In this document: in pieces, positions 1,502 to 26,634 of the stretch
Layout: each line of letters opens with the position of its first letter
Numbering within the stretch: the first letter of the stretch is position 1
Assembly (NCBI GenBank): GCA_031290885.1
Contig: JAISLQ010000050.1
Span: 1 to 33,454 of the forward strand
From: Acidaminococcales bacterium
GTDB taxonomy: Bacteria > Bacillota > Negativicutes > Acidaminococcales > JAISLQ01
DNA: 33,454 bases
Reading direction: 5' to 3'
Made by a program: the position numbers and the translations under genes
The notes under the pieces: model-generated
The model's database searches: none
Told to the model about the DNA's origin: nothing
What the model saw: the letters and a program-made list of their open reading frames with translations, nothing else

Positions 1502-1676
1502 ATACTGTTCCCGGAGTAAAACCAAAGTGTCTTTCTTTGCTCTTTGCGGCCATTTTGCCGCCCCGCCTCGCTCCGAAGCCCCGCCGAACCTACTGCGGGC
1601 GCGCCTGCGTTTTGTGCCGCGCGGGAGGGAAATTTGTCTCGCAAGTCCGATTCATGCTTTAACCCGGGAACAGTAT
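1502..1676 (-). repeat. Inverted-repeat element A (MITE/REP-like) between argJ and argB
   Basis: A perfect 13-base inverted repeat, ATACTGTTCCCGG at 1502-1514 and CCGGGAACAGTAT at 1664-1676, encloses 149 bases with no gene. The inner 100 bases or so contain blocks such as GGCACAAAACGC and GCGGGGCGGCAAAAT that recur in the elements at 6588-6752 (opposite orientation) and 26503-26604 (same orientation). The outer end touches the first base of the argJ stop codon. The element has no transposase, so a MITE-like or REP-like non-autonomous repeat is my inference. An RNA structure that modulates argJ/argB expression is the alternative. Confidence 0.7.
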
Positions 1677-6587: not shown

Positions 6588-6752
6588 AGGGCGTGTTTGA
6601 AAGTTCGCCTTAGGTTGTATTTTCAAGATAATTTTTCATCGGGCAGGAAAGCGCGGCGGCGCGTACCGTATGAAGCCTGCTGCGGGATTCTGCCGCAGCG
6701 GAGCGGAAAATTATCCGCAAAGAGGCCAAAATGGAGTTTTCAAACACGCCCT
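6588..6752 (+). repeat. Inverted-repeat element B (MITE/REP-like) after polA
   Basis: A perfect 15-base inverted repeat, AGGGCGTGTTTGAAA at 6588-6602 and its complement at 6738-6752, bounds 165 bases without a gene. The right arm supplies two of the three bases of the polA TAG stop. The inside resembles element A in opposite orientation: CAAGATAATTTTTC against CGAGACAAATTTCC, and GCGGAGCGGAAAAT..CCGCAAAGAG against GCGGGGCGGCAAAAT..CCGCAAAGAG. The terminal arms of A and B differ in sequence. It looks like a non-autonomous mobile or structural repeat. Confidence 0.7.
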
Positions 6753-9342
6753 AAAAGTTCCCCTTAGTTTGCGCCCAGTTTTTGCCTGCCGCCACGTCCA
6801 CCACCAACGGCACCTTCAATTCGGCGGCTGCCTGCATTGTGCCTTTTACCATCTCTTCCAGCAGCCGCCTCTCGCCGTCCGGCGCTTCAAAGATCAACTC
6901 ATCGTGTACTTGCAGGAGCAGCCGCGATTTCATCTTTTTTGCCGCCAACAGCCGCGCCACGTCCACCATCGCCTTTTTGATTATGTCGGCGGCGGAGCCT
7001 TGGATGGGCGTATTTATCGCCGTGCGCTCGGCGAAAGAACGCCGGTTGAAATTGGAGCTGTTAATGTCAGGCAAATAACGGCGCCGGTTAAACATGGTAG
7101 TGGCGTATCCCGCTTTGCGCGCGTCTTCCACCGCCTGCCGCATGTAGTTTTTTATTCCCGGGTAGCGCCCGAAATATTTTTCGATATATACGGACGCTTC
7201 CGCGCGGCTTATGCCGAGGTCGCGAGCCAGGCCGAAATCGCTGATGCCATAGACTATGCCAAAATTGACCGCCTTGGCGCGCGTGCGCAAGGCCGGCGTT
7301 ACTTGCTCCGCCGGCACGCCGAAAACTTCGGCGGCGGTCTGCCTGTGTATATCCTGATTTTCCCAGAAAGCCCCGATAAAAAGCGGGTCGCCGGACATAT
7401 GGGCAAGTATCCTAAGTTCCACCTGCGAATAGTCAAAAGCCACCAGCCAGTCAAAGCCCGGGCCGGGAACAAAAAATTTCCTGATCCGCCGGCCGGTTTC
7501 CGTCCTGACCGGGATGTTTTGCAGGTTGGGCTCCGTGCTGGACAAGCGGCCGGTAGCCGTCGCCAATTGTTGGAAATGGGAGTGCACCCGGCCGGTTTCC
7601 CGGTCGATCAGCGGTTTCATGCCTTCAAGATAGGTCGATTGCAGTTTGCTGAGCAGCCTGAATTCCAAAACTTCATCGACCACCGGATGCAGGCCGGACA
7701 ATTTTTCCAGTACGTCCGCGTCCGTCGAATAACCGGTTTTGGTTTTTTTCTGCACAGGCAGGGCCAGGCGCTCAAAAAGCAGCGTTCCCAATTGCTTGGG
7801 CGAATTGAGGTTGAATTGTTCCCCGGCCAGGGCGTAAATTTCCGTTTGCAAAAGTTCGATTTTTTGCGAAAGTTCCTCCGACATGGCTTCAAGCTGGCGC
7901 CTGTCCACGGTTATCCCGTTCATTTCCATGGCGGCCAGCACTTTTGTCAGGGGCAGTTCCAGATCGCGGTAAAGTTGGACAAGCCCGGCCTTGGCCAGCT
8001 CTTGCGCCAAAACCGCCTGCAGCCGCGCCAAAAGCTCCGAGGGAGCGGCATCCGCGCCGCCCGGGCAAAAACGGGCGAAAAGAGATTCTATGGTGAAGTT
8101 GTTAAGCGAGGGATCGACTAAATAAGCGGCCACCGCTCCATCGTCCGCTATGCCCCGCAGCGGCGCGCCTTCTGACCGGACGGCCTGATAAAGTTCTTTC
8201 GCGTTAAGTGCGGCCTTGGGAAATTCGGCATCGGACAGCCATTCCAGCACGGCCGGCCAGGCCGCGGCTTCCGCTTGGAAAAGATAAACGCGCCCGCCGG
8301 TAAAAATTTCCATTTCTGCTAATTTAAGGCGCGGCAAAGTTCCCGTAATTTTGGGATAAACAAACGCCGTATCCTCCGTTTGGCCGAACAATATGGCACT
8401 TGCCCGCTCAAAACTGTCCACGGTTTCCGCCGCGCCGCTTTTGACCGGCTTTGCCGGCGCTTCGGGCAAGCCGCCGGCCGCGCATAACGAGGCAAGCTTG
8501 CCTTTCAGTCCGCTAAAATCCAGTTCGGCGACGAGCGATTCGGCTTTGGCCCGATCAGGGTTTATGGTGAACCGGGCGGGAAAAAATTCTATTGGCACGG
8601 CTTTGTCGATGCTGGCCAGCCGCCTGGACAAGAAAGCCAGCTCTTTGTTGGCCGCCAGTTTTTCGCCCGGCTTGCCTTTTATATGCTCAAGGTTGGCAAA
8701 AATATTTTCAACGGTCCCGTATTCCGCCAAAAGTTTGCCGGCGGTCTTTTCGCCTATGCCGGGCACGCCGGGAATGTTATCGGACGCATCGCCCATCAAA
8801 GCTTTAAGTTCGACAATCTGCGCCGGCGACAGGTTGTATTCGGCGCGCAAGGCGGCCAAATCAAAAAGTTTTGTGTTGGAAATGCCCTTTTTTGTCAAAA
8901 GTACCTTGGTCCGTTCGCCGACAAGCTGCAAAGCGTCACGGTCCCCGGTTACGACAATGTTGTCGCAGCCGGCGCCTTCCGCTCGCGCGGCCAGCGTACC
9001 GATAATGTCGTCAGCTTCGTAACCGTCAAAATCTAAAACCGCTATGCCAAAACTCTCAAGCAGCCGGCGCGCCAAGGGGAACTGCTCTATAAGTTCGGGC
9101 GGGGTCGGTTTGCGCTGGGCTTTGTACGCGCTGAAAAGGCCGGTGCGAAAGGTTACGCGCGATTTGTCGAAAGCCACCGCCATAAATTGCGGCTTCATTT
9201 CATCTATGAGGCGCAAAAGCATGTTGGCGAGGCCGTACACGGCGCCGGTATTTACGCCTTTGCTGCTGACAAGCGGCGGCAAAGCGTAAAACGCCCGATA
9301 GAGCAGGCTGCTGCCGTCAACTATGACAAATTTACCGTTCAT
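6751..9342 (-). CDS. polA: DNA polymerase I
   Basis: Fills gaps and removes RNA primers during replication and repair. The 863-residue protein has an N-terminal 5'-3' exonuclease domain (about 1-290, starting FVIVDGSSLLYRAFYALPPL, with VTGDRDALQLV and the helix-hairpin-helix GVPGIGEKTAGKLL). A middle 3'-5' exonuclease-like domain follows, then the polymerase domain with motif A DYSQVELRILAHMSGD (near 640), motif B RTRAKAVNFGIVYGIS (near 694) and motif C QVHDELIFEAP (near 812). In the middle domain the catalytic DxE and other acidic positions appear lost, so proofreading is probably absent, as in Bacillus and Taq enzymes. I chose ATG 9342 (GGATGG seven bases upstream); ATG 9366 would add eight residues. 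The stop overlaps repeat element B. Confidence 0.97.
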   Translation of the reverse strand: MNGKFVIVDGSSLLYRAFYALPPLVSSKGVNTGAVYGLANMLLRLIDEMKPQFMAVAFDKSRVTFRTGLFSAYKAQRKPTPPELIEQFPLARRLLESFGIAVLDFDGYEADDIIGTLAARAEGAGCDNIVVTGDRDALQLVGERTKVLLTKKGISNTKLFDLAALRAEYNLSPAQIVELKALMGDASDNIPGVPGIGEKTAGKLLAEYGTVENIFANLEHIKGKPGEKLAANKELAFLSRRLASIDKAVPIEFFPARFTINPDRAKAESLVAELDFSGLKGKLASLCAAGGLPEAPAKPVKSGAAETVDSFERASAILFGQTEDTAFVYPKITGTLPRLKLAEMEIFTGGRVYLFQAEAAAWPAVLEWLSDAEFPKAALNAKELYQAVRSEGAPLRGIADDGAVAAYLVDPSLNNFTIESLFARFCPGGADAAPSELLARLQAVLAQELAKAGLVQLYRDLELPLTKVLAAMEMNGITVDRRQLEAMSEELSQKIELLQTEIYALAGEQFNLNSPKQLGTLLFERLALPVQKKTKTGYSTDADVLEKLSGLHPVVDEVLEFRLLSKLQSTYLEGMKPLIDRETGRVHSHFQQLATATGRLSSTEPNLQNIPVRTETGRRIRKFFVPGPGFDWLVAFDYSQVELRILAHMSGDPLFIGAFWENQDIHRQTAAEVFGVPAEQVTPALRTRAKAVNFGIVYGISDFGLARDLGISRAEASVYIEKYFGRYPGIKNYMRQAVEDARKAGYATTMFNRRRYLPDINSSNFNRRSFAERTAINTPIQGSAADIIKKAMVDVARLLAAKKMKSRLLLQVHDELIFEAPDGERRLLEEMVKGTMQAAAELKVPLVVDVAAGKNWAQTKGNF

Positions 9343-26459: not shown

Positions 26460-26502
26460 GGATAACTATCCTTTTCCTGCAAAATACTGCTCTTGGCTGA
26501 AA

Positions 26503-26604
26503 TAGCGGCCATTTGCGGCTTTTGCCGCGCCGCTTTGTCCAAAATCTCCGTCGCTACGGGCTGTGCGGCGTTTTGCGCCACGCGGGGCGGCGAATTGGCC
26601 GCTA
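26503..26604 (-). repeat. Inverted-repeat element C between glyA and the dCMP deaminase gene
   Basis: TAGCGGCCA (26503-26511) and TGGCCGCTA (26596-26604) bound about 100 bases that resemble the core of element A in the same orientation: GGCGCAAAACGC against GGCACAAAACGC, and GCGGCGCGGCAAAA against GGCGGGGCGGCAAAA. The arms differ from those of A and B, and the element is shorter, so it may be a truncated copy. It fills most of the 175-base gap 26460-26634, which contains no gene. Confidence 0.6.
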
Positions 26605-26634
26605 AATTTCGTCCGTGTTTTTGCCGGGGGCATA

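Follow-up and report, generated by a model that had tools for sequence, protein, structure and literature searches.

Element A, a gene-less inverted repeat between argJ and argB, very probably belongs to a MITE family specific to its lineage, that is, a family of non-autonomous DNA transposons with a 3-bp target duplication. This reading is supported by its terminal inverted repeats (TIRs), by the 3-bp duplication and by precise empty sites in both directions between two species of one genus; the elements are also short (150-175 bp, within the <~600 bp of MITEs), dispersed and without coding capacity for a transposase. The window, meaning the whole stretch of 33,454 nucleotides that was analysed, is contig 50 of an 85-contig assembly of 2.13 Mb that is 95% complete (G000). 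The sister species (G001, assembly 75% complete) was the sole other genome of the genus compared.

Results

The initial annotation described a perfect 13-base inverted repeat flanking 149 bases, and this is present at 1502-1514 / 1664-1676, extending to 17/19 bases. The limits it proposed for the element, 1502-1676, hold for the repeat but not for the element proper. At the argJ-argB junction, G001 reads CTTTC-TTA-TGTATGG where the window reads CTTTC-TTA-[TACTG...CAGTA]-TCA-TGTATGG, with flanks that are 92% and 88% identical and are joined precisely. Element A is therefore the 173 bp from 1503 to 1675, with a target duplication of 3 bp. The features of the window are as follows.

1500-1502, + strand: target duplication of 3 bp, left copy, TTA (from the empty site CTTTC-TTA-TGTATGG)
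1503-1675, no strand assigned: element A, read as a full-length non-autonomous inverted-repeat element (MITE), bounded by the empty site in G001
1503-1521, + strand: left TIR of element A, TACTGTTCCCGGAGTAAAA (inverted-repeat search; family consensus)
1530-1635, + strand: approximate inner core of element A, common to other end types (nhmmer match ranges, profile positions about 27-134)
1657-1675, - strand: right TIR of element A (inverted-repeat search; family consensus)
1676-1678, + strand: target duplication, right copy, TCA, differing from TTA at one base (empty site comparison)
6589-6751, - strand: element B, with ends unlike those of A (GGGCGTGTTTGAAA...) and a distantly related core, about 9 copies (profile match, family consensus)
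26485-26621, + strand: element C, a decayed relative of A (covariance model and profile matches)

Read on the - strand, 1676-1678 is the stop codon of argJ (ArgJ was assigned by Pfam), TGA here and TAA in G001, and since the duplication coincides with this codon, it does not alter where the reading frame ends. On the other side of the element, the argB start and the purine-rich stretch upstream of it are intact in the sequence. A terminator role for element A was considered and set aside, as its one terminator-like site is no more than shuffles give.

Elements of the A family measure 150-175 bp (consensus about 160 bp), which is too short for a transposase gene, and end in TACTGTTC...GAACAGTA. 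The consensus runs from a TIR of about 19 bp (TACTGTTCYCRGATTAAAA) through a short variable spacer and an inner stem (TTTGCGGCCAATTTGCCGCCC / GGGCGGCAAATT..TCGCAAA) to an apical part. Among 21 copies, pairwise identity is lowest in the spacers (58-64%) and reaches 69-81% in the stems and TIRs. An internal core of ~107 bp is common to most copies from end to end. Many of the G001 copies (e.g. L265, L268) are about 210 bp long rather than 160, apparently through extra apical sequence. One 73-bp copy (L186, G000 C46:50178-50250) consists of little more than its two A-type ends, which means that persistence, at least, does not require the core.

That the element belongs to a dispersed repeat family rather than being a product of chance was borne out at several levels. 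The genome search for further copies that had been proposed gave 45 blastn matches to element A. A covariance model of the A family, built from 17 copies, reports 81 distinct places in the genome at E<1e-3, or 79 once mirror duplicates on contig 4 are removed, and the TIR pattern has 71 matches genome-wide, compared with 0 for a reversed-pattern control. The mirror duplicates (L022, L023, L224, L275-L285) lie at mirrored positions on opposite strands of the 34,388-base contig 4, which appears to be a self-inverted (palindromic) contig and is probably an assembly artefact.

With the A-family profile run over the window alone, element A is found at E 1e-39, element C at 26485-26621 in the same orientation (E 7e-16) and element B, inverted, at 6728-6616 (E 2.5e-6), and the next new match is at only E 0.05. 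The core blocks that the initial annotation saw recurring, inverted near 6588-6752 and in the same orientation near 26503-26604, are thus both recovered. The alignment scores also stand clear of shuffled sequence, as the A profile gives 23.3 bits for the B-family consensus and no more than 2.2 bits for any of 500 shuffles. The look-alike translations noticed across the cores follow simply from the shared core DNA. Element C is intergenic, between a deaminase gene and glyA (SHMT), with no recognisable matching TIR pair. Element B lies between polA and mutM/fpg with 3-bp flanks TCA/TAA. It is missing from the polA-mutM junction of G001, but this is not a clean empty site, because about 95 bp of adjoining sequence differ too. 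The polA gene apparently ends in TAG (window 6751-6753), with the last base supplied by the end of element B and two more residues than in G001.

Many A-family copies were also detected in G001 with the covariance model, and none in 61 other genomes of the order, under somewhat stricter filters. The family is therefore restricted to one genus among the genomes searched. Exact matches to a 21-base core in GTDB genomes occurred in JAISPA and as two single matches in unrelated bacteria (Planctomycetaceae and Hydrogenophaga), which were taken as chance. There was no exact 21-mer match to the family in IMG/VR and no blastn match to the element in phage and plasmid collections.

By simple ORF calling, 0 of the 41 copies with enough flank lie inside a long ORF; their gene context is tandem in 25, divergent in 6, convergent in 4 and undetermined in 6. 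An enrichment at stop codons is not claimed, since on a rough reckoning the numbers fit a random choice among TNA sites.

The reverse case to the argJ-argB site was found on contig 84 of G000, which is empty (CG-TGA-AATACAGG) where G001 is filled, with TAA on both sides. The insertion in G001 (L154, C6, about 1500-1887) is a 383-bp composite, in which a complete element is accompanied by a palindromic stretch that looks unrelated and by a solo A end. Over 35 copies, the 3-bp flanks are more alike within copies than between them (identity 0.57 vs 0.46, p 0.004); an excess at 2 bp (p 0.005) is nested in the 3-bp one, and none is seen at 4 bp or more. Only 17% of copies carry an exact 3-bp duplication, which is attributed to the age of the copies. 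The flanks, mostly TTA, TAA, CAA, TTG and TGA, make the duplication one of YNR/TNA type, matching the 3-bp TNA-type duplication of IS5-family (IS1031-like) elements.

The suggestion of conserved cores with different terminal arms proved apt, as A, B and type-3 ends surround a shared core, which lies at profile positions about 27-134 in the type-3 copies and in B. The outer ends of 68 core-bearing G000 copies were scored as mostly A-type, with about 12 of type 3 (GAGCCTGTTAACACTGCC). Some copies have mixed ends, combining type 3 with A (L084, L024) or B with A (L017), and one is a nested A/B copy (L040). Three end types around one ~107-bp core, together with chimeric copies, are the unusual part of this family, and the simplest inference is an exchange of ends by recombination through the core. 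It is also possible, if rather unlikely, that the core is an independent unit that repeatedly gains new outer ends, one hairpin core exploiting several transposases. An end-swapping superfamily covering the A, B and type-3 ends and the mixed-end intermediates forms part of that reading and is held to be similarly doubtful.

Discussion

Of the three types of repeat proposed by the initial annotation, MITE, REP or structured RNA, the first is the one that fits, with its TIRs, 3-bp duplication and empty sites. The most substantial case for another reading is that of a structured RNA, for example a cis-regulatory hairpin or attenuator of the arg operon and other transcripts with its fold under selection. 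Compared with its shuffles, element A forms a more stable fold (z -4.3 on the - strand), and the consensus of the family gives a long, almost perfect hairpin with an energy of -74 to -86 kcal/mol, depending on the strand. The arms have also changed together between the two species (62 vs 44 two-sided cells, 0/500 shuffles). However, such covariation between species can arise from one founder change passed to all copies, and the excess appears only on combining the two species, largely at pairs where the species consensus sequences differ. The location of the excess at these pairs indicates that the founders kept their symmetry and that individual copies decay, which is the prediction for a transposon with symmetrical ends; for the inner stem, it is also conceivable that selection acted on a DNA hairpin in the founder. 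The covariance check that had been recommended gave nothing beyond shuffles within the species of G000, where the covariation score is 0.149 vs 0.150 and hairpin pairs are standard in 83.5% of cases, against a shuffled mean of 83.5% (21 copies for both). TIR arms are about as identical within copies (0.686) as between copies (0.681), RNAalifold on the first alignment gave no coherent structure, and no Rfam match was obtained, whether by gathering score or at E<0.5. A structured RNA would also leave insertion with a target duplication unexplained, and we regard it as improbable.

Decay of full-length insertion sequences into solo ends and internally deleted forms, rather than amplification of a MITE as such, could account for the copies with a TIR only or a shortened interior and for the IS5-like transposase fragments in the genome. 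Against this, most copies carry the same ~107-bp core end to end and were therefore amplified as short units, and searches of Rfam and of plasmid and phage collections gave no match to the element; this origin is very improbable. A REP/BIME-type repeat spread by a TnpA-REP (RAYT) Y1 transposase is the least probable of all, even with copies that are intergenic, palindromic and numerous and with one Y1_Tnp gene in G000. That single gene is on C19, where the covariance model reports no copy, and the G001 assembly (75% complete) has no Y1_Tnp match despite its many copies. The elements are also unlike REPs, which are given as 20-40 bp (PMC3733652): they measure 150-175 bp, their TIRs are paired and their insertion duplicates 3 bp of the target.

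For the MITE family, an autonomous partner, whether TnpA-REP or a full IS with the same ends, was sought in the assembly as the initial annotation had advised and was not found. In the whole-genome list of A-type ends, no opposing pair lies 0.7-4 kb apart besides the known short copies. The DDE_Tnp_1 matches in the genome are few and mostly broken or truncated, and none is bounded by A ends; the ORFs beside solo A ends, read by eye, resemble housekeeping or other non-transposase genes. A missing helper says little, since high-copy elements are often absent from such assemblies, and the helper could conceivably have been collapsed during assembly (85 contigs, 95% complete).

Two contig ends (L194, G000 C21:1-199, and L196, the end of C57) have 199 bases in common at 95.5%, comprising the 3' end of an acetyltransferase-like gene (by eye) and an A end, with the homology ending at the TIR. 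Such an arrangement points to the duplication of a larger unit that has an A end as its border; the gene fragment gave no family match.

IS5-family transposase remnants are present in the genome. One fragment, of IS5_3 type, adjoins a B-like end, AGGCCTTGTTTAAAAACG (L207, G000 C53:21821 to the contig end), and in G000 none adjoins an A end. Further AGGCCTTGTTTAAAAACG-type ends, similar to those of B, occur on C74, C76, C8 and C27. The IS1031 group stands for IS5-family subgroups with a 3-bp target duplication, and the duplication of the A family is likewise 3-bp and TNA-like. B and type-3 ends (GGGCGTGTTTGAAA, GAGCCTGTTAAC) also resemble IS5-type ends. Unlike in the IS5-family subgroups, however, no transposase-bearing element with A ends (TACTGTTC...) at its borders turned up in this genome. 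Members of IS5 typically start with GG/GA and the A end starts with TACTG, so the helper family is uncertain and an IS5-type helper for the A family is a guess.

Movement of the A family would be driven in trans by a DDE transposase able to recognise its ends, most likely one from an IS5-family subgroup with 3-bp duplications. Inserted copies would survive mainly between genes and then decay; at argJ, the insertion point would have been the stop codon itself, and the duplication would have preserved it. As the species diverged, founder elements may have changed their ends and inner stem, both arms together, and at least two exchanges of the outer ends may have taken place around a single ~107-bp core, from which the three end types and a small number of chimeric copies would derive.

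IS-derived bacterial MITEs, such as those of Coxiella burnetii (PMC5896051) and MITEAba12 (PMC6382973; review, PMC10969869), are similarly short, gene-less and hairpin-capable, with TIRs, a target duplication and many copies. The A family differs from them in having no parent IS found, in its three end types on one core and in being found, across the genomes searched, in a single genus of Acidaminococcales. TIMEs (PMC4133298) are Tn3-derived miniature elements that form mosaic transposons, and their ends are able to enclose extra DNA, which can be compared with the 383-bp G001 composite; unlike TIMEs, the A family has no recognised Tn3-type ends and its target duplication is 3 bp. With REP/BIME and REPIN sequences (PMC2817692, PMC3116915), it shares palindromic structure, intergenic location and high copy number, but it is longer, with paired TIRs, a target duplication and no associated Y1 transposase.

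To summarise, the family is real, well-bounded and of a known kind (MITE), and no description of it was found in the resources searched. This abundant, lineage-restricted MITE family of uncultured Acidaminococcales appears to be undescribed, and its empty sites between species are clean. With one core shared by three end types, it is a natural setting in which to study how non-autonomous elements change from one transposase to another, and it accounts for intergenic hairpins in the genome that might otherwise be taken for regulatory RNAs.
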